Shown: positions 49,654-62,010 of the stretch, piece after piece
Layout: the number at the start of each line of letters is the position of its first letter
Numbering within the stretch: the stretch's first letter is position 1
NCBI RefSeq assembly: GCF_027947595.1
Contig: NZ_CP116257.1
Span: 3,286,001-3,350,000 of the forward strand
DNA length: 64,000 nt
Origin: Streptomyces lienomycini
Lineage (GTDB): Bacteria; Actinomycetota; Actinomycetes; Streptomycetales; Streptomycetaceae
Direction: 5' to 3'
Position numbers and translations under genes: made by a program
The notes under the pieces: model-generated
Told to the model about the DNA's origin: nothing
Seen by the model: only the letters and a program-made list of their open reading frames with translations
The model's database searches: none

Positions 49654-50011
49654 CCCACGTCCGCCTCTCGTCGTCGGGCTCGCGCCGCCAGCACCATACC
49701 CGCGGGTATGCCGGGGTCGGCCGCCAGGGCGGACGGGGCTGTTTCAGGGGTGTTTCAGGCCTATCGGCGAAGGCGTGGATCACGCCATTCGGCCGGTTCC
49801 GGACTGAGAAATCGATCAAGAACCGCCGTGTTCCGGACTTGGAACGTTCTAATTTCGTGACTTCGCGCCACTGATTCAATACGCAAGGTTACCGAAACCC
49901 GTGGGGTCGAGATGAGTTTCGGTGCCGGACTCGGCAGACTCGCGCTCGCCGTTCCGGCACCGACCGGGCCGGACCGGCACCACCCTCGAAACGAGCGGAA
50001 GGATGCACACC
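49654..50011. other. Divergent promoter region, 358 bp, with repeats
   Basis: No gene seen. It serves the flavoprotein (-) and the protease inhibitor (+). Features: direct repeat GTTTCAGG (49741 and 49752), direct repeat GTTCCGGACT (49796-49805 and 49830-49839, 34 bp apart) and inverted repeat ACCGAAAC/GTTTCGGT (49891-49923). The stretch 49800-49890 is AT-rich and is the likely inhibitor promoter. Confidence 0.5.
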
Positions 50012-50446
50012 ATGCGGAACACCGCGCGCTGGGCAGCGACTCTGGGCCTGACGGCCACCGCCGTCTGCGGGCCCCTCGCCGGGGCCTCCCTCGCCTCCCC
50101 GGCCACCGCCCCCGCCTCGCTCTACGCCCCCTCGGCCCTGGTGCTGACCGTGGGGCACGGAGAGAGCGCTGCCGCCGCCGCACCCCTGCGCGCGGTCACC
50201 CTGACCTGCGCCCCGACGGCCTCCGGGACCCACCCCGCCGCCGGGGCGGCCTGCGCCGAACTGCGCGGGGCGGGCGGCGACCTCGACGCCCTCGCGGCCG
50301 AGGACGAGGTGATGTGCACCCGGGAGTACGCCCCCGTGGTCGTCACCGTCGACGGGGTCTGGCAGGGCCGACGCCTCTCCTACGAGCGCACCTTCGCCAA
50401 CGAGTGCGTGAAGAACGCGGGCAGCGCGAGCGTCTTCACGTTCTGA
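50012..50446 (+). CDS. SSI family protease inhibitor with Arg at P1
   Basis: A 144-residue secreted inhibitor of the Streptomyces subtilisin inhibitor family. The signal peptide ends around residue 30. Four Cys form the two usual disulfides. The reactive-site region reads [16 protein letters not shown]; aligned with the classical CPMVY loop, P1 is Arg and P1' is Glu, predicting strong inhibition of trypsin-like proteases. [17 protein letters not shown] and SVFTF at the end are diagnostic. The start is ATG 50012, with GGAAGGA 8 nt upstream; ATG 50003 is less likely. Confidence 0.94.
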
Positions 50447-50596: not shown

Positions 50597-50952
50597 TCAC
50601 TCCTTCCCGGCGGGCCCGTCACCGGACCCGGACGACCTGGCCCGGTGGCTGGTGTCGCACCAGGGATAGCGGCGACTGCGCCGGCAGGTGCACAGCGCCA
50701 CCCGGAAGCGGTCGGACGACACCGTCGTCCCGTCCTCCAACTCCACCTCCACCGGCCCCTCCACCAGCAGCGGCCCCCGCCGCTGGACCTTGATCCGGCG
50801 AGGAGCCCCGGACGGGCGGGGGGCCTCGGACGGGCGGGGGGCCTCGGACGGGCGGGGGCCTCGGACGGGCGGGGGGCGTCGGAAGAGCGGGGGGCGTCGG
50901 AAGGGCGAGCGGTCTCGGACGGGCGAGACGGGTCAGACGGGGAGTTCGGCAC
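50597..50952 (-). pseudogene. CDGSH iron-sulfur domain protein, frameshifted in a tandem repeat
   Basis: The conserved part is RIKVQRRGPLLVEGP through CTCRRSRRYPWCDTSH (C-x-C-x(9)-C-D-x-S/T-H), which binds a 2Fe-2S cluster. It has no start codon in its own frame after the preceding gene's stop. A good start, GTG 50952, overlaps that stop and opens an Asp/Pro/Ser-rich repeat tract (PSDAPRSSDAPRPSEAP) one frame off. The third 18-bp repeat has five Cs (minus strand; G5 at 50854-50858) where its neighbours have six. Adding one base joins both parts into 118 residues. It is a broken gene or an assembly error. Last gene of the oxidase-methyltransferase set. Confidence 0.75.
50807..50899. repeat. 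18-bp tandem repeat in CDGSH gene
   Basis: About five units of the type GGACGGGCGGGGGGCCTC (plus strand), the outer ones diverged. On the minus strand they encode a Pro/Ser/Glu repeat. One unit is 17 bp long because its G run is five instead of six. Confidence 0.85.
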
Positions 50953-51595
50953 GGACGACCACCAACTCCTCCTCGTACTCGGCCAGGGACAGCAGCCCGC
51001 GCTGCCGCAGCCAGCGCTCCCGGCCCCGCACCACGGGACCGAACGCGATCCGCCGCCGCCGGGTCACCGCGGCCTTCAGGCCCGCCTCGCGCAGCAGCCC
51101 CTCGGTCCTCGCGGGGTCGCTGAGCGCCGACTGCACGAGCAGCAGCACACCACCGGGGCGCAGCAGGCCGGGCGCCTCCCGGCAGATCCGGTCCAGGACC
51201 ATGCGGCCGTCGTGACCCGCGTCCCAGGCCCGGGCCGCACCACGCGGCCGGCGGCCACCGGCCGGCGCGGGCACGTACGGCGGGTTGGCCAGCACCAGGT
51301 CGAACGACTCACCGCGTACGGGCGTGAAGAGGTTGCCGTGCCGGACACGGACCCGCAGTCCGGCCCGTGCGGCGTTGAGCCGTGCGGCGCACACCGCCCG
51401 CCACGACACGTCCACCGCCGTCACCCGGCCGCCCCGCAACGCCGCGGCCAGGGCGAGGGCGCCGGTACCGGTGCCCACGTCGAGCACGGCCGCGCCCGCC
51501 GGGAGCGACTCGTCGGACAGCGCCCCGGCCAGCAGGGCGGTGTCCTCCTGAGGGGCGTAGACGCCCGGTAGCACCATGAAATTCACGGAACCCAC
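50933..51595 (-). CDS. HemK-like class I SAM methyltransferase
   Basis: A 220-residue methyltransferase. The SAM site is VLDVGTGTGALALAAA, the acidic motif is VTAVDVS, and the NPPY motif (LVLANPPYVPAP) marks the HemK/PrmC and MTQ2-like group that methylates glutamine, adenine or protein N. It lies 12 bp after the haem-oxygenase-like gene and overlaps the CDGSH gene by 20 bp, so the three form an operon. The start is uncertain: GTG 51595, or ATG 51577 (MVLPGVYAPQ). Confidence 0.88.
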   Translation of the reverse strand: MGSVNFMVLPGVYAPQEDTALLAGALSDESLPAGAAVLDVGTGTGALALAAALRGGRVTAVDVSWRAVCAARLNAARAGLRVRVRHGNLFTPVRGESFDLVLANPPYVPAPAGGRRPRGAARAWDAGHDGRMVLDRICREAPGLLRPGGVLLLVQSALSDPARTEGLLREAGLKAAVTRRRRIAFGPVVRGRERWLRQRGLLSLAEYEEELVVVRAELPV

Positions 51596-51607: not shown

Positions 51608-52639
51608 TCACGAAATATGGGAAATTTCCCCACGAGCACGGTGCGTCGCGGGCCGCGGTGTGCGCAGCGACGAGTGTCCCGCCCGCCAGTCGGCGAGCAG
51701 CCGGGCGCCGAAGCGGTCGTCGAGGTACCCGGTGGCGTCGATGCCGAACACGACGTCCGCCGCGAGCCCCGGTTCCTGCTCCAGCAGGCCGTCGATCACC
51801 TCGTGCCGCACGATCTGCTCGTGCACCGCGTCGGCCTCGACGTGCTCGTCGTAGAAGTGCTCGGCGGCAGGCCCGGCCCCGGTGCGGCGCATCGCCTCGG
51901 CGAGCCGCCTCGAACCGGGCGACGAGGTGATCTCCACCGCCGCGAAGTGCCCGACCAGCGCGCCCCGCAGGGACCGGTGCAGGCCGAACAGCGACATCAT
52001 GTTCACCGTGGCCAGACACTCGGCCGAGGCCGCGTCGAGATGGCACCCGTACGTGGTGTCCAGGCCCAGGTCGGTCATGAGGTCGGCGAACAGCCGGGCG
52101 TGCACCCGGTCGGCGCGGCCGCCCCCGTACTCGTCGAACTCGACCGCGGCCATCGCCGCCTTCGCGCGCCCCCACAGCCGCGGCAGCACCCAGGCGTGCG
52201 GGTCGGCCTCCTTCAGGTGGTACAGGGAGCGCTGGGCGGCGTACTCGCGCAGCTGCCACAACTCGCCCTCGTCCCGCAGGAAGTGGCTGACGCCCTCACC
52301 GCGGACGGGTTCGACGAGCAGCGCCCCGACCGCGTCCGCCACGCTCCCGTGCACCGGGGTGTCGGTTCGCAGGGCGGACAGGAAGCGCCGCTCCAGAGCG
52401 GCTCGGACGCGCAGCAGGCCGGGGTCCCACTCGAGGTCGGGGCAGACGCCCGCGAAACCCCGGTAGTGCAGCTCGTAGCACTGGTACAGGGCGAGCTGGA
52501 GATCGTCGCCGTACACGGGCGCGGCGGCGACGGCCCCAGGGGCCGGCAGCGCACCCGTGCCGAGCAGATAGGCGCCGACGGCCCCGGAGACCGGGCCCCG
52601 GGCCGTCGGCGGCTGTGGTCCTTCACGGTCGTACTCCAT
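51608..52639 (-). CDS. Haem-oxygenase-like diiron/iron redox enzyme (HDO type)
   Basis: A 343-residue all-helical protein of the haem-oxygenase-2 / iron-containing redox enzyme family. Candidate metal ligands are in QCYELHYRGFAG (Glu, His), in VGHFAAVEITSSP and in FYDEHVEADAVHEQIVRHE (Glu and His repeated). Relatives such as UndA and SznF use a labile diiron site for N-oxygenation or decarboxylation; haem binding is not implied. With the methyltransferase and the CDGSH protein it forms a compact set that may build or modify a small molecule. ATG 52639 has a weak ribosome site. Confidence 0.82.
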   Translation of the reverse strand: MEYDREGPQPPTARGPVSGAVGAYLLGTGALPAPGAVAAAPVYGDDLQLALYQCYELHYRGFAGVCPDLEWDPGLLRVRAALERRFLSALRTDTPVHGSVADAVGALLVEPVRGEGVSHFLRDEGELWQLREYAAQRSLYHLKEADPHAWVLPRLWGRAKAAMAAVEFDEYGGGRADRVHARLFADLMTDLGLDTTYGCHLDAASAECLATVNMMSLFGLHRSLRGALVGHFAAVEITSSPGSRRLAEAMRRTGAGPAAEHFYDEHVEADAVHEQIVRHEVIDGLLEQEPGLAADVVFGIDATGYLDDRFGARLLADWRAGHSSLRTPRPATHRARGEISHIS

Positions 52640-52694
52640 GCGGCGCGAGTACCCGGCGAGCGCCGTGGCACCCGCGCCCGTGCGCGGCGGCGCG

Positions 52695-52874
52695 TCAGTC
52701 TCCCTCGGCGTCCTCCTGGACCCCGGGGTTCGGCGAGGTGGCGTCCCCCGCCTCGCCCCGGTGCTCTCCCTCGTCGGACTCCGCGTCGCGGGGCCTGTCC
52801 TCCTCGATCTCGCGCAGGACCTCCTCGACGGCGGTCTCGGGCTGCTTGTGGTCGTGCTCGCCGTTCCGGGACAA
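52695..52874 (-). CDS. Small acidic protein with TTG start
   Basis: A 59-residue protein beginning MSRNGEHDHKQPETAVEEVL and ending GVQEDAEGD; about a third of residues are Asp/Glu. No hydrophobic segment. The TTG start at 52874 has GAGGAG 7 nt upstream, and codon use is coding-like. It lies between the Ppx gene and the oxidase gene on the same strand. Function unknown. Confidence 0.65.
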   Translation of the reverse strand: MSRNGEHDHKQPETAVEEVLREIEEDRPRDAESDEGEHRGEAGDATSPNPGVQEDAEGD

Positions 52875-52991
52875 CGGGTTCTCCTCTCCTCGCGGGTTCG
52901 CTCTCGGGTTCTCGAGTCCGCCTCGTACGGTCTGCGCCGTTCGCGCGGCTCGTGGATCTCGTGCGGTCCACGGTCGTCTCGACGTGGACGG

Positions 52992-54002
52992 TCAGTTCGA
53001 CGTGGACGCCAGGCGCAGCGGCGCCGGTGCCGGGGGAGCGGCCTCGTCGCTGCGGCGGACGACCTCGGCCCACCAGGACGGGCCGTCCTCGATGTGGCGC
53101 AGCAGGACACCTTCGCGGATCGCCCAGGGGCAGAGCGTCACCGAGTCGAGACCCGTCAGCTTCATCGCCGTGTGCCCGACGACGGCGCCCGCCAGACTCT
53201 GCGCCGAGCGGGGCGCGGAGATGCCGGGCAGCCGGGCCCGCTCGGCGGCGGACAGGGCGGCCAGCCGGCCGACGGCGTCCCCCAGGTCGGAGCAGAGCAT
53301 GCGCCGCACCATGAAGGGCCCGTGCCGGCCGGGCGGCGCTCCGCACAGCCGCCCCAGCTGCTGGAAGGTCCGCGAGGTGGCCACGGCGGTGCGCGGCCCC
53401 TCCCAGCGGATCCGTGCCGCCGCGTCCCGCAACTGGTGGCGGACCTTGCGGCGCAGCGCCCGGAGCTGGTCGGGCGAGGCGGGGTCCTGGCCGCCCGCGA
53501 GGAACTCGTGGGTCAGCCGGGCCGCCCCCAGCGGCAGCGAGGCCACGAAGCCGGGCAGCCGGCCACGCCCGAACGCGATCTCCAGCGAGCCGCCGCCGAT
53601 GTCGAGCAGGGCGAGCGGCCCCGCCCGCCAGCCCATCCAGCGCCGCGCCCCGAGGAACGTCAGCTCCGCCTCGACCTCGCCCGGCAGGGTGCACAGCGGC
53701 ACGCCGGTACGGGCCCGGACCGTGCGCAGCACCTCCTGGCGGTTCGGTGCGGCGCGCACCACGGCGGTCGCGAAGGCCAGGGGGCCGGAGGCCCCCCACC
53801 GGTCCGCGGTCCTGCCCGCGTCGGCGACCGCCGACACGAGCCGCTCCACGGCCTCCTCGGGGACCGGACCGCCCGGCCTCACCTGCTCCGACAGCCGCAG
53901 CCGCCACTTCGCGGTGTGCACCGGCAGCGGGACCCCGCCCTCGGCGTCCGCCACCATGAGCCGAACCGTGTTCGACCCCACATCCACCACGCTGATCCGC
54001 AT
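52992..54002 (-). CDS. Ppx/GppA phosphatase family protein
   Basis: A 336-residue protein of the ASKHA fold. It starts with VVDVGSNTVRLMVAD (phosphate 1) and has LLDIGGGSLEIAFG (phosphate 2). Members hydrolyse polyphosphate or pppGpp; the Streptomyces paralogues are often poorly active. It ends with ICP-like WAIREGVLLR. It starts 30 bp after the ABC exporter and may belong to the same transcript, though its role in export is not obvious. Confidence 0.92.
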   Translation of the reverse strand: MRISVVDVGSNTVRLMVADAEGGVPLPVHTAKWRLRLSEQVRPGGPVPEEAVERLVSAVADAGRTADRWGASGPLAFATAVVRAAPNRQEVLRTVRARTGVPLCTLPGEVEAELTFLGARRWMGWRAGPLALLDIGGGSLEIAFGRGRLPGFVASLPLGAARLTHEFLAGGQDPASPDQLRALRRKVRHQLRDAAARIRWEGPRTAVATSRTFQQLGRLCGAPPGRHGPFMVRRMLCSDLGDAVGRLAALSAAERARLPGISAPRSAQSLAGAVVGHTAMKLTGLDSVTLCPWAIREGVLLRHIEDGPSWWAEVVRRSDEAAPPAPAPLRLASTSN

Positions 54003-54032: not shown

Positions 54033-56855
54033 TCAGGCCAGTTGCCGCCGCACCAGCTCGTGCAGCCGGCCCCCGGTGTCGGCGAGCAGCTCGGCCGGCG
54101 GGCCCTGCTGGGCGACCCTGCCGTCCTCCATGACGATCACGCGGTCGGCGTCCAGCACCGTGGACAGACGGTGCGCGATCACGACGCGGGTGGCGCGGAG
54201 CGCCTTGGTGGACTCGATCACCGTGCGCTGGGTCTCGTTGTCCAGGGCGCTGGTCGCCTCGTCGAAGAAGAGGACACGCGGTCGGCGGATCAGCGCCTGC
54301 GCGATCATCAGCCGCTGCCGCTGGCCCCCGGAGACCGCCCCGCTGCCCGACACGATGGTGTGCAGGCCCATCGGCATCCGCCTGATGTCGTCCGCGAGCC
54401 CCGCCATCTCGGCCGCCGCCATCGCCTCCTCGGGCGTGTACGGCTCGGTGCCGCAGATGACGTCCAGGATCGAGCCGGTGAACGGCTGCGCGTGCTGGAG
54501 CACCACCCCGCACTGCCGGCGCACCGCCGACCGGTCCAGCGCGGCCAGGTCCTGTCCGTCGTACAGGACGCTGCCCGACAGCGGCCGGTCGAAGCCGATC
54601 AGCAGCCGCAGCAGGGTCGACTTGCCGCAGCCGCTGGGGCCGACGACCGCCACGAACTCGCCGGGACGCACCTCGAACGACACGTCGTCCAGGACCGGCG
54701 GACCGTCGTCGGTGTACCGGAAGGACAGCCTGCGCGCCTCGACCGCCCCCGACAGCGGTCCCGGACGGGTGCTCGCCGTCCGCACCTCGGGCGCGGCGTC
54801 CAGGACCGGCCGGATCTCCTCGAACAGCGGCAGCGCCGCCACCCCCGACACGAACGCGCCGGTCAGCTGGGTGACCGAGGTCAGCAGCATCGTCACCGAG
54901 GCGTTGAAGGTGAGGAACTCCGCCGCCGACATCGAGCCCCGCGCCGGACCGGCGAGCAGCATGAACATCAGCAGCGTGCACAGCGGCAGGTAGACCGCGC
55001 CGAGGACCGCGTTCAGGTTCTTGATCCGGCCCGCGCGCCGCTGCAGTTCACGGCTGTGCGCGAACCGCTCCGCCCACGCCGCGTAGGCGTAGTTCTCGGC
55101 GGCCGCCACCCGCAGCTTGGGCAGCCCGCTCAGTGTCTGGAACGCCTGGTTGTTCAGCTTGTTGGTGAGCTTGACCAGCCGCCGCTGCCAGCGCACCTGC
55201 CACAGTCCGAGCCCCAGGAACACCCCGGCGACGACCACCAGCACGCCGATCGCCGCGAGCGCCATCGGCACGCTGTACCAGAGCAGCAGCCCCAGGTTCA
55301 TCACCCCGACCGTCACCGACTGGACGACCGTCGGGCCGACCCCCGCGAGGAGTCTGCGGATCGCGCTGACGCCCATGGCCGCGCTCGCCAGCTCGCCGGT
55401 GGAACGCTCGGTGAAGAACCCCGTCGGCAGCCGCAGCAGCCGGTCCCACACGGCAGGCTGGAGCGTCGCCTCGATCCGGCCCTCCAGGCGCAGGATGGTG
55501 AGGTTCTGCACCAGCATGAAGGCCGCCGCGACGACGCTGCTCAGCATCACCGCGAGGCACACCTGCGCGATCAGCCCGGTCTGCGCCGTCGGCACGAACT
55601 CGCCGAGCACCCGGCCCGTGGCGATCGGCACCAGCGCTCCGAGCGCCACCGTCACCAGACCGGCGAGCAGCAGGGACGTCAGGTCCCGGCGCGTGCCCGC
55701 CAGGCAGAACCGCAGCAGCCGCAGCGGACCGAGCCGGCGATCCGGCAACGGCCGGTAGAACATCACCGCGCGCGGCTCGAACTCCCCGGCGTTCGCCTTC
55801 TCCACCGGCGTCTCCCGACCGGTCGCCGGATGCACGGCCGCATAACCGCCGCGCCGCCACAGCAGCGCCACCGGCGCCCCCGACAGGGTGCGGTGCCCGA
55901 CCAGCGGCCCCACGTCGTCGCGCCACCAGCGGTCCTCCAGCCGCACCGGCCTGGTCCGCACGCGCGAGGCGAGCGCGATGCGCTCCACCGGGTCGAGCCG
56001 GTCGCTCTCCGCGTTGCCCGTGCCCGGCTCGGCCAGCGGAATCCCGGCGGCGCCGGCGACCAGCCTGCAGGCCGCGTACGTGGCGTCGGCGTCGGCTGCC
56101 GTGGTGCGCCCCGCCGAACGCTTGCCGAGGGAGGCCAGCAGCGTCCGGTCGGCCTGCGCGCGCACCGCCTCACCGGCCTTGATACCGGCCGCCGTCCGGG
56201 TCTCGTGGGTGCGCTCCACCTGCTCGATCCACCGGTCCAGGGTGGTCAGCAGCCGGTACTGCTGGTCGACCAGGCTCTGCCACAGCGCCGGGTCCATCAG
56301 CAGGTCGGAGGCCGCCTCCTCGCCGTAGACCGCGCCGTACCGCACGCTGCCCGGCGGGACCTGCATCCAGAACACGTCGTCGTCCGTGGGCGCCGCGGCC
56401 CGGTCGGAAGCCATCGGCGCCTGGAACAGCACGGTCAGACCGCGGCCCACGCCGAGCGCGAGGGCGTACTCCAGCGGACTGGTCGTCGGCGGCACGTACC
56501 GCGGGTTGCCGTACGCGTCGTACGACCACGTCTGCGTGTGCGCCGGCTGGTACAGCTCGCGCAGTCCGATGCGGTGCACCACGCAGTCCCGCAGCGGACG
56601 CGCCACCAGCGTGTGCTGCGGACCGGCGACCGGCCCGAGCAGCACCGAGCCCGCCTCCAGGCGCCCCAGGTGGTGCCAGTGGCCCTGCTCCCCGGCGTCG
56701 ACCGCGAACAGGTCCACCGCGCCGGACACCACCAGCCACAGCACCTGCGGCCCCTCCAGGTCCAGCCGGTTGGACCCGGCGCAGTCGACGCGCGTGCCCA
56801 GCGCGCCGAGCGCCCCGAGGACGAGGTCGCCCTGTTCCTCCCGTACGGTCGTCAT
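54033..56855 (-). CDS. NHLP-type ABC exporter, permease/ATPase without peptidase
   Basis: A 940-residue protein. Residues ~1-150 resemble a cyclic-nucleotide-like sensor domain (LVVSGAVDLFAV, LGRLEAGSVLLGPV). Residues ~370-660 are the ABC transmembrane domain and ~690-940 the ATPase with Walker A GPSGCGKST, signature VSGGQRQRL and Walker B VLFFDEATSALD. No C39 peptidase. It matches the NHLM bacteriocin-export second ABC component. It starts 1 bp after the stop of the peptidase-ABC gene. The two may form a heterodimer for peptide export. Confidence 0.92.
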   Translation of the reverse strand: MTTVREEQGDLVLGALGALGTRVDCAGSNRLDLEGPQVLWLVVSGAVDLFAVDAGEQGHWHHLGRLEAGSVLLGPVAGPQHTLVARPLRDCVVHRIGLRELYQPAHTQTWSYDAYGNPRYVPPTTSPLEYALALGVGRGLTVLFQAPMASDRAAAPTDDDVFWMQVPPGSVRYGAVYGEEAASDLLMDPALWQSLVDQQYRLLTTLDRWIEQVERTHETRTAAGIKAGEAVRAQADRTLLASLGKRSAGRTTAADADATYAACRLVAGAAGIPLAEPGTGNAESDRLDPVERIALASRVRTRPVRLEDRWWRDDVGPLVGHRTLSGAPVALLWRRGGYAAVHPATGRETPVEKANAGEFEPRAVMFYRPLPDRRLGPLRLLRFCLAGTRRDLTSLLLAGLVTVALGALVPIATGRVLGEFVPTAQTGLIAQVCLAVMLSSVVAAAFMLVQNLTILRLEGRIEATLQPAVWDRLLRLPTGFFTERSTGELASAAMGVSAIRRLLAGVGPTVVQSVTVGVMNLGLLLWYSVPMALAAIGVLVVVAGVFLGLGLWQVRWQRRLVKLTNKLNNQAFQTLSGLPKLRVAAAENYAYAAWAERFAHSRELQRRAGRIKNLNAVLGAVYLPLCTLLMFMLLAGPARGSMSAAEFLTFNASVTMLLTSVTQLTGAFVSGVAALPLFEEIRPVLDAAPEVRTASTRPGPLSGAVEARRLSFRYTDDGPPVLDDVSFEVRPGEFVAVVGPSGCGKSTLLRLLIGFDRPLSGSVLYDGQDLAALDRSAVRRQCGVVLQHAQPFTGSILDVICGTEPYTPEEAMAAAEMAGLADDIRRMPMGLHTIVSGSGAVSGGQRQRLMIAQALIRRPRVLFFDEATSALDNETQRTVIESTKALRATRVVIAHRLSTVLDADRVIVMEDGRVAQQGPPAELLADTGGRLHELVRRQLA

Positions 56856-56856
56856 C

Positions 56857-59079
56857 TCACCGCTCCCCGACCAGCGCCGCGTACGCGCCACCGCGCGCCA
56901 CCAGCTCCTCGTGCCGCCCGCGCTCCACCACCGTGCCGTGCTCCAGGACGACGATCTCGTCGCTGTCCCGTACGGTGCTGAGCCGGTGCGCGATCACCAC
57001 GCAGGCGCAGCCGCGCCGGCGCAGGTTGTCCATGACCACCAGCTCGGTCTCCGCGTCCAGCGCACTGGTCACCTCGTCCAGCACGAGGACGCTGGGCCGG
57101 CGCACCAGCGCCCGCGCGATCTCCAGGCGCTGGCGCTGCCCGCCGGAGAAGTTCCGGCCGTCCTGCTCGACCCGGCTGTGGACGCCGCCCGGCCTGCGCG
57201 TCACCACGTCGTACAGCGCGGCGTCCCTCAGCGCCTCCACCACGGCGTCGTCGGGGATCGACGGGTCCCACAGCGCCACGTTGTCGCGCACCGAGCCCTC
57301 GAACAGGAACACGTCCTGGTCGACGAAGGAGACGGAGGACGCCAGCGCCCCGCGCGGGATGTCGTCGAGCCGCTGCCCGTCCACGCGGATCACCCCGTCC
57401 CAGGGCGCGTACAGGCCCGAGATCAGCCGCGACACCGTCGACTTGCCGCTGCCCGAACCGCCCACCAGCGCCACCTGCTGCCCCGGCCCGACGGTCAGGT
57501 CGAAACCGGTCAGCAGCGGCTCGTCGAGCGGGTTGTAGCCGAAGGACACGTTCTGCAACTCGACGTGGCCGCGCAGCCGGCGGGTCGAGTCGGCGCCGCC
57601 CGGGCGGTCGTAGAGCGGGTCCGCCCGGAAGTTCTCCACGTCCTTCAGCCGGGCCACGTCGGCCGCGAAGTCCTGGATGCGGCCCGCGACGCCGTTGAGC
57701 CGGGTCAGCGGGGCCGTGAAGCGGACCACCAGGGCCTGGAAGGCGACCAGCAGACCGACCGAGATGTGGCCCTCCACCGCGCGCATGCCGCCGATCCACA
57801 GGATCAGCCCGCTGTTCAGCGTCGCGAGCGTCGGCGCGACCACGCCCAGCCAGGCGCTCGGCACCCCGAGCCGCTGCTGCTCCTCCAGCGTGGTGGCGTG
57901 CTGCCCGGCCCACTTGCGGAAGTAGCCGTCCTCGCCGCCGGTCGCCTTCATCGTCTCGATCAGCTGGAGGCCGGTGTACGCGGTGTTGGTCAGCCGCGCC
58001 GTGTCCGCCCGCAGCTTCGCCGTACGGGTCGCGCGCAGCCGGATCACCACCCGCATCGCGAGGATGTTGAGCAGCGCCACACCGATGCCGACGAAGGTGA
58101 GCTGCGGGTCGTACGTGTACAGCAGCACGGCGTACAGGACGACCACGATCGCGTCCACGCCCGCCGCGGCGAGGTCGCGGGCCAGCGTCTCGGCGACCGC
58201 GTCGTTGGACTGGAGGCGCTGCACCAGGTCGGCGGGGCTGCGCTGGGAGAAGAAGGTGACCGGAAGCCGCAGCAGGTGCCGCAGGAAGCGGGCGCTGGAC
58301 AGGGTCGAGGAGATGATGCGGCCGTGCAGGAGGTTGGCCTGTTGCAGCCAGGTCAGCACCACCGTGAGCAGCACACAGGCGCCCATCGACGCGAAGAGCA
58401 CGCCGAGCAGCGAGGTCTGCCCGCCGATCAGGAACAGGTCGATGTAGGTACGGCTGAGCGCGGGGACCGCCGCGCCGACCGCCACCAGGAGCAGGCTCGC
58501 CAGCACGGCCGCGGGCAGCGTGCCCGCGGTGCCGCGCAGCCGGGCGGGCATCGCGCCGAGCACACCGGGCCTGCGGCCGCCGCGGGTGAAGCCGTCGCCG
58601 GGCACCATGGTCAGCACGACCCCGGTGAAGCTGCCGTCGAACTCCTCCAGGGACACGAAACGGCGGCCCTTGCCCGGGTCGTTGACGAACACCCCGCGCC
58701 GCCCGAACCGGCGGCCCATGCCGTCGTAGACGACGTAGTGGTTGAACTCCCAGAAGAGGATGGCCGGTGCCGTCACCTCGGCGAGCGCGGCCAGGTCCAT
58801 CTGCATGCCCTTGGCCGTGAGCCCGTACCTCCGCGCGGCCTTCAGCAGGTTGCTGGCGCGCGACCCGTCACGGGAGACACCGCAGGCGATGCGCAGCTCC
58901 TCCAGCGGGACATGCCGGCCGTAGTGCCCCAGCACCATCGCCAGGGAGGCGGCGCCGCACTCCACGGCCTCCATCTGCAACACGGTCGGCGTACGGACGG
59001 TCTTCGCGCGGCCCTTGGGCACGCCGCGCCCGGGCGGGGCGGCGCGGCGTCTGCCCCGGGTCTCCTGTGCGGTGCTCAC
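56857..59079 (-). CDS. Peptidase-containing ABC exporter (PCAT, C39)
   Basis: A 740-residue protein with an N-terminal C39 peptidase: Cys41 (EAVECGAASLAM), His114 (FNHYVVYDG) and Asp134 (VNDPGKG) form the catalytic triad. The transmembrane domain (~190-470) and the ATPase (Walker A GGSGSGKST, FSGGQRQRL, VLVLDEVTSALD) follow. It would cut a precursor after GG and export the core. GTG start at 59079 overlaps the HlyD stop by GTGA. The obvious substrate is the GG peptide 900 bp upstream. Confidence 0.95.
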   Translation of the reverse strand: MSTAQETRGRRRAAPPGRGVPKGRAKTVRTPTVLQMEAVECGAASLAMVLGHYGRHVPLEELRIACGVSRDGSRASNLLKAARRYGLTAKGMQMDLAALAEVTAPAILFWEFNHYVVYDGMGRRFGRRGVFVNDPGKGRRFVSLEEFDGSFTGVVLTMVPGDGFTRGGRRPGVLGAMPARLRGTAGTLPAAVLASLLLVAVGAAVPALSRTYIDLFLIGGQTSLLGVLFASMGACVLLTVVLTWLQQANLLHGRIISSTLSSARFLRHLLRLPVTFFSQRSPADLVQRLQSNDAVAETLARDLAAAGVDAIVVVLYAVLLYTYDPQLTFVGIGVALLNILAMRVVIRLRATRTAKLRADTARLTNTAYTGLQLIETMKATGGEDGYFRKWAGQHATTLEEQQRLGVPSAWLGVVAPTLATLNSGLILWIGGMRAVEGHISVGLLVAFQALVVRFTAPLTRLNGVAGRIQDFAADVARLKDVENFRADPLYDRPGGADSTRRLRGHVELQNVSFGYNPLDEPLLTGFDLTVGPGQQVALVGGSGSGKSTVSRLISGLYAPWDGVIRVDGQRLDDIPRGALASSVSFVDQDVFLFEGSVRDNVALWDPSIPDDAVVEALRDAALYDVVTRRPGGVHSRVEQDGRNFSGGQRQRLEIARALVRRPSVLVLDEVTSALDAETELVVMDNLRRRGCACVVIAHRLSTVRDSDEIVVLEHGTVVERGRHEELVARGGAYAALVGER

Positions 59080-59882
59080 GGCAGCAGCCAATCGACGGGA
59101 CGCCGGTCGGCCAGCCGGATGGAGCCCGCGGCCAGGGTCATGGAGGTCAGCTCGAACGGCGGCCCGTCGGCCGAGGACCACTCGTAGCCGCTCCTGGTGG
59201 ACGTCGATTCCGCCAGTTCCACCGTCACGGCGACCGGCCTGCCGTCCTTGGTGAACTGCTCGCCGAGCGCGCCGTCCCCGAGGAACGCACCGATCGTCTG
59301 AGCCGACTGGGCCGAGCGGTCCACGGACTTCACCTCGCCGTGCAGGACGCCGTACCGCTGCGTCGGCACCGACTGCACGGTCAGGTCGACGGAGGCGTGC
59401 GCGGGGATGGCGGCCGCGCTCTCGGCGGGCACGTAGACGGTGGCGCGGAGCGGATCGTCGGCGTGGGCGACCTTCTCCACCGAGGCGACGTTCGCGCCGG
59501 TGGCGATGATCTGCCCGACGGTGGCGGCGAGGCCGCTGACCCGGCCGGCGTCGACCGAGCGGACCACGGTCTCGCCCTCGGAGGTGCGGACCTTCAGCAC
59601 CGGGGCGTCGGCGGCCAGCCGCTGACCGGGGCGCGCGAGGACCGCGGTGACCTGCCCCGCGACGGGACTCTGCAGCAGGTAACTGCCCTGCCCGTGGGTG
59701 AGGACGGCGGGGGCGGCGACCGTGGAGGTCACCGAGCCGCCCACCGCCCACACGGACGCGGCGGCCATCGCGACCACGGTCACGGACAGCGCCAGCCAGC
59801 CCTGCGGGCGGGCGAAACGCACCGGGAGGTCGAGCCCCTCCGGTGACTGGAGTTTGGTGAGGGCCTGTTGGCGGAACTGCAC
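59076..59882 (-). CDS. HlyD-family export adaptor (NHLP type)
   Basis: A 268-residue protein: a short cytoplasmic lead (QFRQQALTKLQSPEGLDLPV), one transmembrane helix (LALSVTVVAMAAASVWAVGG) and an extracytoplasmic part with a lipoyl-like LQSPVAGQVTAVLARPGQ and beta-barrel. HlyD adaptors link ABC exporters to their outlet; in Gram-positives they probably help release. Start taken as GTG 59882 by likeness to relatives; a TTG at 59927 would add 15 residues. It is next to the peptide gene. Confidence 0.9.
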   Translation of the reverse strand: MQFRQQALTKLQSPEGLDLPVRFARPQGWLALSVTVVAMAAASVWAVGGSVTSTVAAPAVLTHGQGSYLLQSPVAGQVTAVLARPGQRLAADAPVLKVRTSEGETVVRSVDAGRVSGLAATVGQIIATGANVASVEKVAHADDPLRATVYVPAESAAAIPAHASVDLTVQSVPTQRYGVLHGEVKSVDRSAQSAQTIGAFLGDGALGEQFTKDGRPVAVTVELAESTSTRSGYEWSSADGPPFELTSMTLAAGSIRLADRRPVDWLLP

Positions 59883-59933
59883 GACTGACGTACCCCGGGC
59901 TCGATGAGAACGGCCGAAGAAGGACAACGGCCG

Positions 59934-59965
59934 AAAAGTCCCGGAGCCTGGCCGGCTCCGGGACT
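59934..59965 (-). terminator. Rho-independent-like terminator between peptide and export genes
   Basis: AGTCCCGGAGCC pairs with GGCTCCGGGACT (12 bp) around 5 nt, followed on the minus strand by TTTT. It lies 19 bp past the peptide stop and before hlyD. It would make a short abundant peptide mRNA with partial read-through into the exporter genes. Confidence 0.85.
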
Positions 59966-59984
59966 CAGCGACGCAAGGGCGCGA

Positions 59985-60200
59985 TCAGAGACCGGCGACC
60001 AGGCCCGTGACCGGGGCCGTGTTCAGGCCGGTGACACCCTCGACGGTGCCGACGGCCGTGTTGAGCAGGCCGGAGACCGGGGCGATGCCGTCCACCAGAC
60101 CGGTGACGGTGCCGGCGGCGTTCACGTTCAGGCCGCCGGAGACGTTGTCGAGGTCGGCGTCGGAGATCTCGACGGTCTCGACCCGGGGGGTGGAGTTCAT
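59985..60200 (-). CDS. Double-glycine leader peptide precursor, Cys-free core
   Basis: A 71-residue precursor. Leader residues 1-23 (MNSTPRVETVEISDADLDNV then SGG) have the typical acidic, SDxDLDxVSGG form recognised by C39 peptidases. The 48-residue core begins LNVNAAG and repeats a V-T/S-G-L unit four times (VTGLVDG, VSGLLNT, VTGLNTA, VTGLVAG). It has no Cys, Lys, Arg, His, Phe, Trp or Tyr; only one Asp and one Glu are charged. Databases may call this type A2 lantipeptide, but no Cys means no lanthionine. ATG with GAAGGGAAG upstream. Confidence 0.9.
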   Translation of the reverse strand: MNSTPRVETVEISDADLDNVSGGLNVNAAGTVTGLVDGIAPVSGLLNTAVGTVEGVTGLNTAPVTGLVAGL

Positions 60201-60780
60201 GATGGAACTTCCCTTCGTATAGCCATTTCACAAGGGGGGAGCGGCCCCCTCTGGGGACAGATGACGGCCGCGACCGCGGGCGCCGGGCGCCCGTTTCCAG
60301 AGCCCTCCGCGGCCCCCGCGGTGCGATGGATCAAAGCACGCGGCCGGTCCGTGCTTCCAATCAATCACCCCTCCCACCAGCGCACTTGCGACGACCGGGC
60401 GCCCAACGGTGCAGGACCGCGCACGCCGTCGGGTCGACTTCTTCACACGGTGCGCGACATCGGCCCGTGCGACCCCTTGCCCACGCGGAAGTGATTGGGG
60501 CACTCCCGCCCCAAACGCGTACCGGGCCCCGCCGGGTTGTGCAGATCCTCCAGCGAGGGTGACCGGGTTGGGCAATCGATGTGCAGATTCGCTGAAGCAC
60601 ACGATCCGTTCCGCGGTCTCAACAGTGCGTCAGCGAACGAGTGCGGAGCGTGGGCGGTCGACGGGACATGACGACCCGTCTGAACACCCCGCCCGGTCCG
60701 TGCGTACCAACAGCCGTCCAGGCGTCCCCACAGCTGCCGGACCGGCGGGCACGGGCCCCGGTCCCAGGAGGTCGAGCAGG
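60201..60780. other. Divergent promoter region, 580 bp
   Basis: The longest gap in the window. No ORF with a ribosome site and coding-like codons was found on either strand. It carries promoters of the GG-peptide operon (-) and the secreted protease (+). Inverted repeats: AAGCACG/CGTGCTT (60334-60356) and TTGGGGC/GCCCCAA (60495-60514). The first is 134 bp from the peptide start and is a possible control site. A GGAGG site precedes the TTG start of the protease. Confidence 0.5.
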
Positions 60781-62010
60781 TTGAGTCACCAGCGAATTCC
60801 GAAGCGCAGGGCCGCGATGGCGGCAGGCGGTGTGGTGGCGCTCGGCGCGGCCGCGATCCTGCTGCCCACCGCCAACGCCTCGCAGGGCGGCGGCTCCCCG
60901 GACGACGCCGCGTCGGCGCCCCGGACCCTCAAGGCGGCGGACGCGTCGCAGCTCGCCTCGCGCCTCGCCGGACTGCTCGGCGACACCTTCGCGGGCTCCT
61001 ACTACGACTCCGGCGCGCAACGGCTCGTCGTCAACGTCGCCGGCGGGGACGACAACCCCGTCGTCGCGGACGCCGAGAAGGCGGGCGCGGACGTCCGCGA
61101 GGTCGACCACAGCATGGGCGAACTGCGCGGCGGCGCCCGGACCCTGAAGTCCGAGGCGAGCATCCCCGGCACCTCGTGGGCGATCGACCCGCGCACCAAC
61201 AGGATCCTGGTGACCGCCGACAGCACCGTCACCGGCGACCGGTGGGACCGGCTGGAGTCCACCGTCGAGCGCCTCGGCTCCGGCATGGCGACCGTCAGGA
61301 AGTCGGCCGGTACCTTCAGAACGTTCGCGTCCGGCGGCGACGCCGTCTTCGGCGGCGGAGCGCGCTGCTCGCTCGGCTTCAACGTCACCGCCGGCGACGG
61401 CTCGCCCGCCTTCCTGACGGCCGGTCACTGCGGGGTCGCGGCCGACCGGTGGTCCGACGCGCAGGGCGGGCAGCCGACAGCCACCGTCGACCGGGCCGTC
61501 TTCCCCGGGGCGGGCGACTTCGCACTCGTCACGTACGACGACCCGGCGACCGACGCCCCCAGCGAGGTGAACCTCGGCGACCGGGCCCTCCCGATCAGCC
61601 GGGCCGCGGAGGCGACGGTCGGGCAGGAGGTCTTCCGCATGGGCAGCACCACCGGACTGGCCGACGGCCAGGTCCTCGGCCTCGACGCCACCGTCAACTA
61701 CCCCGAGGGCACGGTCACCGGCCTCGTACAGACCGACGTCTGCGCCGAGCCGGGCGACAGCGGGGGCTCCCTGTTCACCGGGGACGGCCTCGCGATCGGT
61801 CTGACCTCGGGCGGCAGCGGTGACTGCACGGTCGGCGGCGAGACCTTCTTCCAGCCGGTCACCACCGCGCTGGACGCCGTGGGCGCCACCCTCGGCGACG
61901 GCGACACAGGCGCCGGTGACACGGGCGTGGCGGACGGCACGGGCGCAGGTCACGAGGACGGCTCCGGGCCGACGGGCCGACGGGCCGACGGGCTGGCGGG
62001 CGGGAGGTGA
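60781..62010 (+). CDS. Secreted chymotrypsin-like serine protease (S1, Streptogrisin type)
   Basis: A 409-residue pre-pro-protease. The signal peptide follows the TTG start (SHQRIPKRRAAMAAGGVVAL, cleavage near ANAS). The pro-region (~40-180) is of the alpha-lytic type. The mature domain shows catalytic His (FLTAGHCG), Asp (GAGDFALVTY) and Ser (EPGDSGGSLF). A Gly/Asp/Thr-rich tail of about 35 residues is less usual. GGAGG precedes the TTG. It could be restrained by SSI-type inhibitors, but one with P1 Arg suits trypsin-like enzymes better. Confidence 0.93.
   Translation: MSHQRIPKRRAAMAAGGVVALGAAAILLPTANASQGGGSPDDAASAPRTLKAADASQLASRLAGLLGDTFAGSYYDSGAQRLVVNVAGGDDNPVVADAEKAGADVREVDHSMGELRGGARTLKSEASIPGTSWAIDPRTNRILVTADSTVTGDRWDRLESTVERLGSGMATVRKSAGTFRTFASGGDAVFGGGARCSLGFNVTAGDGSPAFLTAGHCGVAADRWSDAQGGQPTATVDRAVFPGAGDFALVTYDDPATDAPSEVNLGDRALPISRAAEATVGQEVFRMGSTTGLADGQVLGLDATVNYPEGTVTGLVQTDVCAEPGDSGGSLFTGDGLAIGLTSGGSGDCTVGGETFFQPVTTALDAVGATLGDGDTGAGDTGVADGTGAGHEDGSGPTGRRADGLAGGR

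Follow-up and report, generated by a model that had tools for sequence, protein, structure and literature searches.

Peptide export operon of the window

The window, a 64,000-nucleotide stretch of the genome of Streptomyces lienomycini (NZ_CP116257.1, positions 3,286,001 to 3,350,000 of the forward strand), carries on its minus strand, at positions 54033-60200, a four-gene operon that encodes a double-glycine (GG) peptide, an HlyD-type adaptor (hlyD), an ABC exporter with a C39 peptidase domain (ABC1) and a second ABC exporter (ABC2) (Table 1). To judge by gene order and description, this operon is SCO0753-0756 of Streptomyces coelicolor, a locus already in print. The operon, the leader of its peptide and a DNA element upstream of it were compared across the genus, which was taken as Streptomyces from the named relatives.

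Table 1. Features of the peptide export operon and of its surroundings in the window
Feature	Position	Strand	Remarks
Precursor peptide gene	59985..60200	-	71 aa; leader 60132-60200 (23 aa, GG-ended), core 59988-60131 (48 aa)
Hairpin, 12-bp, between peptide gene and hlyD	59937..59965	-	found by reading; likely a partial terminator or mRNA 3' stabilizer
hlyD-type adaptor, NHLM_micro_HlyD-like	59076..59882	-	GTG start deduced by aligning relatives
ABC1: C39 peptidase / permease / ATPase exporter	56857..59079	-	GTG start placed by eye, overlapping hlyD stop
ABC2: second NHLP permease/ATPase, without C39 match	54033..56855	-	profile match
Shared upstream element GATTGG-N16-CGTGCTTTGATC, putatively promoter-like or a regulator site	60329..60362	-	129-162 nt before peptide ATG
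Ppx/GppA phosphatase	52992..54002		beyond ABC2
PF14518 redox enzyme	51608..53110		below the operon
Methyltransferase-small-domain protein	50933..51595		below the operon
Subtilisin-inhibitor-like protein	49922..50446	+	further down
Streptogrisin-like protease	60778..62010	+	divergent from operon

ABC1 scores 1023 bits against the NCBIfam model NHLM_micro_ABC1 (TIGR03796, cut-off 853) and 122 bits against Peptidase_C39, and the catalytic Cys (EAVECGAAS), His (FNHYVVYDG) and Asp (VNDPGKG), read by eye, are present; ABC2 scores 893 bits against NHLM_micro_ABC2 (TIGR03797, cut-off 709). The adaptor scores 142 bits against NHLM_micro_HlyD (TIGR03794), below the cut-off of 156, yet this is by far its best family. 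The initial annotation of a GG precursor, hlyD, a C39 exporter with Cys-His-Asp and a second NHLM-type exporter was thus confirmed by profiles and by reading of residues. NHLP export systems have a nitrile-hydratase-like or Nif11-like leader peptide as a feature, whereas the leader here is a short GG leader, and no Pfam family matches the peptide at E up to 1, so that the chaplin and rodlin families are also unmatched. The CTB family bacteriocin model NF038167 gives 13.9 bits, below its curated cut-off of 32.

The GG of the precursor stands at residues 22-23, and the core that follows contains no Cys, Lys, Arg, Phe, Trp, Tyr or His and two acidic residues, with equal counts in the core of the nearest relative. 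If these seven residues were as frequent as they are in the other operon proteins, the chance of finding none of them in 48 positions would be 5e-5. Units of V-T/S-G-L start at residues 32, 42, 56 and 64, and none of 20000 shuffles of the core reached four such units; the description of the core as built on four of these repeats and free of Cys, aromatic and basic residues therefore stands. The core has a grand average of hydropathy (GRAVY) of 0.96 and four GxxxG motifs.

Downstream of the stop codon of the peptide gene, 34 of 45 relatives' loci have a hairpin with no fewer than 10 bp, compared with 16 of 900 shuffles. The hairpin of the window was not picked up by a scan for U-tract terminators, and nothing was found in 59800-60800 when this interval was scanned for sigma-70 promoters and U-tract terminators. 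As a partial terminator or a stabilizer, the hairpin would yield more peptide mRNA than exporter mRNA.

Conservation of the operon in Streptomyces

The precursor has 657 homologous proteins. Among the 392 genomes of the genus survey, a peptide match (E up to 1e-3) was found in 254, an ABC1 match (E up to 1e-120) in 286, and a strong match to a profile of 24 leaders in 284, a count from which seven genomes with weak leader matches (E 0.04-0.1) were excluded. Counted directly and without phylogenetic correction, ABC1 and a strong leader match occur together in 281 genomes, the leader only in three, ABC1 only in five and neither in 103; three of the five have an ABC1 at only 49-57%, and the other two match at a contig edge. 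Two near-complete genomes (G317 and G353, loci L236 and L221) have a leader peptide with an exact upstream element and no ABC1 match, and may have lost the exporter or use another. A class-level survey detected the leader in one of 137 genera (30 of 394 genomes), and an order-level survey gave peptide matches in two of six genera (121 of 197 genomes). Conservation within the genus is therefore broad, well beyond the few strains to which the initial annotation had allowed that the peptide might be confined.

The order peptide-hlyD-ABC1-ABC2 is present in 45 of 60 fetched loci (40 of 40 best-match loci and 5 of 20 second-or-weak-match loci) and in all 80 named loci. The 45 ortholog cores, of 47-62 residues, contain no Cys, Lys or Arg and zero to three His or aromatic residues; Cys, Lys and Arg are likewise missing from the operon cores of 80/80 named loci. 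When open reading frames (ORFs) were clustered, those under 80 aa being ignored, no further gene was shared by more than 25 of these 45 operon loci. The peptide places tabulated in the genus survey are 73-100% identical. In Nei-Gojobori estimates from 20 close loci, the peptide gene has a ratio of nonsynonymous to synonymous substitution rates (dN/dS) of 0.38 with a dS of 0.19, compared with a dS of 0.47 for hlyD, 0.41 for ABC1 and 0.45 for ABC2; the low dS of the peptide gene, which is one crude estimate, fits strong codon preference and high expression.

Thirty-six genomes with ABC1 and no peptide match contain 38 exporter places, of which 31 were fetched. A divergent Cys-free GG peptide is encoded upstream of hlyD in all 27 of these loci that have ABC1 at 78-83% identity; Lys or Arg is present in 13 of these 27 peptides and His or an aromatic residue in 17. 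The composition given in the initial annotation thus belongs to one branch: a precursor-exporter unit with a hydrophobic core free of Cys, Lys and Arg is conserved in the 45 and 80 loci, and the divergent class shares the absence of Cys. The four remaining fetched loci (L111-L114) encode a distant NHLP system with ABC1 48-50% identical and about 700 nt between ABC1 and ABC2, in which a regular-expression search gave no such GG leader. In another locus (L237, genome G145), the exporter operon and two different leader peptides lie within one stretch.

A GG leader with a C39 exporter is the classical export set of bacteriocins. The operon peptide might accordingly be a pore-forming bacteriocin of class II type directed against competitors, to which the hydropathy and GxxxG motifs of its core would be suited, and the models matched by the exporter are named for bacteriocin export. 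Such a function is unlikely, however, for a peptide with carriage as wide as 281 of 392 genomes, identity of 73-100% among the tabulated places, a core without a basic residue in the window, and no immunity-like gene that recurs beside it among the clustered ORFs of 80 aa or more.

Sister peptides and a shared upstream element

Two or more leader matches (E up to 0.1, the second matches not having been individually checked) occur in 128 genomes, all of which have ABC1. Sixty-four peptides with this leader were classed as unlinked, meaning that the fetched stretch (about 5-9 kb per side) has no hlyD or ABC1 match: 47 came from 60 stretches picked by eye, 12 of which held the exporter (with 13 linked peptides) and one of which (L217) yielded no row, and 17 came from loci L071-L090. 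As the leader profile was built in part from unlinked peptides already seen, it is bound to retrieve peptides of that type; none of them was found by means of the upstream element. Several types of core occur under the one leader. In genome G191, one unlinked leader peptide (L084) has a His-rich core with repeated HHG, possibly a metal-binding secreted peptide, and another (L247) has collagen-like repeated GLP units in its core.

All 45 operon loci have the element CGTGCTTTGATC, with at most two mismatches, at a distance of 67-166 nt ahead of the peptide (the copy in L060 is exact), and GATTGG or a variant of it frequently stands 16 nt further upstream. Of the 80 named loci, 77 have the element ahead of the peptide. 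It is found with at most one mismatch before seven of the 13 further linked peptides, and within 300 nt upstream of 37 of the 64 unlinked peptides (exact in 21, with one mismatch in 16). By comparison, a control set of 2592 further ORF starts from these loci, which are mechanical ORFs of at least 100 aa and not curated genes, has no exact copy and one copy with one mismatch. In 40 whole genomes, which were selected for bearing leader peptides, 42 of 45 exact copies of the element precede a same-strand leader peptide by no more than 400 nt (a comparison with 103 of 109 leader rows, E up to 1.7e-5), and a reversed control pattern has four copies. The three exact copies away from leader peptides (in G289, G049 and G260) have no GG peptide in the frames of the next 700 nt and were taken as chance. 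The genome of the window has the two-block element once with up to three mismatches allowed, before this operon, compared with two copies of the control pattern, and has one leader match; the regulon in this strain thus seems to be the operon alone. From the shared leader and shared element, many of the unlinked peptides are likely to be made simultaneously with the operon peptide and exported by the same transporter. No report on Streptomyces that describes the element or the shared leader turned up in a search of the open-access literature. The operon itself is real but known; what is newly added is the proposed leader-and-element regulon. The sister peptides and the element, like the S. coelicolor publication considered below, had been overlooked in the initial annotation.

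Modification enzymes and neighboring genes

Databases label many relatives of the peptide "type A2 lantipeptide", and a paper of 2026 (PMC13047742) takes this name as a sign of antimicrobial potential. The name misfits because there is no Cys in the core of the window peptide or in those of the 45 and 80 relatives, and a type A2 or class II lantibiotic was rejected on this ground and for want of a linked enzyme in the window. LanM or LanBC is not among the scanned genes of the window and no neighbor recurs, although a class III synthetase is near the operon in some relatives. Pfam scans of the genes called in the window by a GC3 script (E up to 1e-5, 1e-12 or 1e-6) found no lanthionine synthetase, YcaO, radical SAM or ATP-grasp enzyme, in agreement with the initial annotation; some of the called frames have no Pfam match and are possibly wrong, and stretches such as 23.2-25.1 kb were not covered.

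The peptide could also be a ribosomally synthesized and post-translationally modified peptide whose enzyme acts from elsewhere, such as the class III lanthionine synthetase of a neighboring ram-type cluster. A synthetase of this class (RamC_N; LanKC NF038151, 1164 bits) is encoded about 10 kb upstream of the operon in G049, RamC-like matches of 80-82% are present in the flanks of G229 and G260 and in L042, and at least 18 of the 80 named loci have a RamC-like match within flanks of up to 10 kb, mostly cut at the flank end. Weak LanC-like matches occur 10-11 kb from the operon in eight of the 40 genomes (G026, G049, G063, G124, G197, G229, G252 and G260), and the cores contain Ser and Thr. Against such a modification, the operon cores of the 45, 80 and 27 loci have no Cys and so could carry no lanthionine, no RamC-like match was found in the window or in 16 kb beyond it, and three of the 40 leader-bearing genomes have no LanC-like match at all, LanC-like enzymes being the only type searched genome-wide. 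The modified peptide is thus quite unlikely. The linked modification enzyme that the initial annotation named as a possible objection does exist near the operon of some relatives, and looks like part of a separate ram/SapB-type cluster; its proximity weakens the idea of an unmodified peptide and does not remove it. In G049 the synthetase gene (L297:3279-5936) adjoins an ABC gene, and the RamC type is found also in L298, L299 and L042, so that two hydrophobic-peptide systems lie side by side.

The genes for the methyltransferase-small-domain protein and the PF14518 redox enzyme are 1-3 kb below the operon; the clusters taken as theirs (C13 and C7, respectively) occur in five and six of the 60 loci, and the redox enzyme frame has a tblastn match in eight. 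The streptogrisin-type protease was rejected as an operon partner, as its cluster (C2) occurs in only 25 of the 60 loci; its gene points away from the operon, and the gene for a subtilisin-inhibitor-like protein is found further down (Table 1). Near the operon in other loci are SpoIIE-type phosphatases with GAF/PAS domains (L036:11576-13720, L032:11352-14033), which belong to a broad cluster (C1) present in 29 of the 60 loci.

Comparison with published systems

SCO0753 of S. coelicolor has been described as a very hydrophobic, Cys-free peptide of 77 residues, conserved in many Streptomyces, that is encoded upstream of the hlyD gene SCO0754 and the ABC genes SCO0755-0756, with the exopolyphosphatase SCO0757 next in the table (PMC6629963). 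The order peptide, HlyD, two ABC proteins and exopolyphosphatase is that of the window, and both peptides are Cys-free and hydrophobic. When the SCO5282 kinase was activated, in a strain whose growth was dispersed, no gene was induced more strongly than SCO0753 (log2 of 6.3 by RNA-seq and 8.1 by qRT-PCR); in the null mutant SCO0753 was almost silent, which places it under the control of the SCO5282/5283 two-component system (PMC6629963). In other work, SCO0753 was up in an aor1 deletion (PMC5733086) and SCO0756 was slightly down in another mutant (PMC6414726). The covered parts of the S. coelicolor account (PMC6629963) mention neither sister peptides nor a shared element. SCO0753 is annotated with 77 aa and the window peptide with 71 aa, and an upstream ATG gives 77 aa in 19 of 80 orthologs.

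The streptococci, which belong to a different phylum from Streptomyces, export GG peptides by ComAB/BlpAB, of another exporter family than the transporter of the Streptomyces operon. Those peptides share a regulator and an exporter, and one of them, BriC, is controlled by ComE and promotes biofilm (PMC6181422); the Streptomyces element is known by its sequence only. The unlinked GG peptides, shared element and candidate shared exporter recall ComAB/BlpAB, and a two-component system affects the operon (PMC6629963), so that the peptides might be secreted to act as signals (pheromones), a role that streptococcal GG peptides can have. That they are pheromones is nevertheless very unlikely: clustering gave no other gene, and hence no sensor kinase, shared by more than 25 of 45 loci, cores of 47-62 residues are long for a pheromone, and one leader precedes many different cores.

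A likeness by description only is offered by EbfG1-4 and PteB of Synechococcus elongatus, in which small GG peptides require a C39-peptidase transporter and have a role in biofilm (PMC4997328). EbfG1-3 show amyloid behavior (PMC9981879), whereas the window peptide is known from its sequence. Within Streptomyces, SapB, of the ram cluster, is a secreted morphogenetic surfactant peptide (PMC6629963), and a RamC-type synthetase is near the operon in some relatives; SapB is lantibiotic-like, whereas the operon peptide lacks Cys and its operon showed no dedicated synthetase alongside.

Proposed function of the peptide regulon

Guided by its leader, the precursor would most likely reach the C39 domain of ABC1 and be cut there after GG, and the core of about 48 residues would move out, unmodified, through ABC1, ABC2 and HlyD. 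Unlinked GG peptides, having other cores with the same leader and often the same element, are probably made together with the operon peptide and exported by the same route. The secreted peptides may then act on the hyphal surface or the extracellular matrix, either as surface-active or as assembling peptides. It is probable, on balance, that the operon exports an unmodified Cys-free peptide and is the fixed core of a Streptomyces-specific regulon, whose products most likely have a surface or matrix role and are not lantibiotics. In favor of a putative surface or matrix role are the composition of the peptide, its broad conservation, an expression that is probably high and the published association with dispersed growth; cyanobacterial EbfG/PteB and streptococcal BriC are possible analogs.

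Several observations, in addition to the nearby class III synthetases, weigh against this reading. AlphaFold2 found no confident fold for the precursor from an alignment of 34 rows (predicted local distance difference test score, pLDDT, 57.5; predicted template modeling score, pTM, 0.18). The dN/dS of the core across all 45 loci is 0.97, which suggests that composition is retained more than exact sequence genus-wide. Three genomes have the leader without ABC1: G001, which is 79% complete, G317 and G353. The element is weaker in the divergent class, where it is typically CGTGCTTnCATC (at most one mismatch in 10 of 27 loci, at most two in 25); it has two to three mismatches before six of the 13 further linked peptides and is absent at one mismatch from 27 of the 64 unlinked peptides. 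Cys is present in 14 and Lys or Arg in 24 of the 64 unlinked cores, and the unlinked peptides may therefore not share the role of the operon peptide; furthermore, related genomes have the same unlinked peptides in common, so the 64 are not independent. In S. coelicolor, the change of morphology was accompanied by many other changes of expression (PMC6629963).

More tentatively, and with greater doubt than the surface or matrix role itself, the regulon might be a genus-specific coat or matrix system of unmodified secreted peptides beside the chaplins, rodlins and SapB, switched through the element, possibly by SCO5282/5283, and setting how hyphae stick together. If the proposed function is correct, a secretion regulon common in this industrially central genus would have as its hub a conserved peptide that databases label as a lantibiotic. 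S. coelicolor offers a host in which to test the DNA element, the leader and the gene list; the operon has been linked there both to a two-component system and to pellet versus dispersed growth, which is of practical concern in fermentation.

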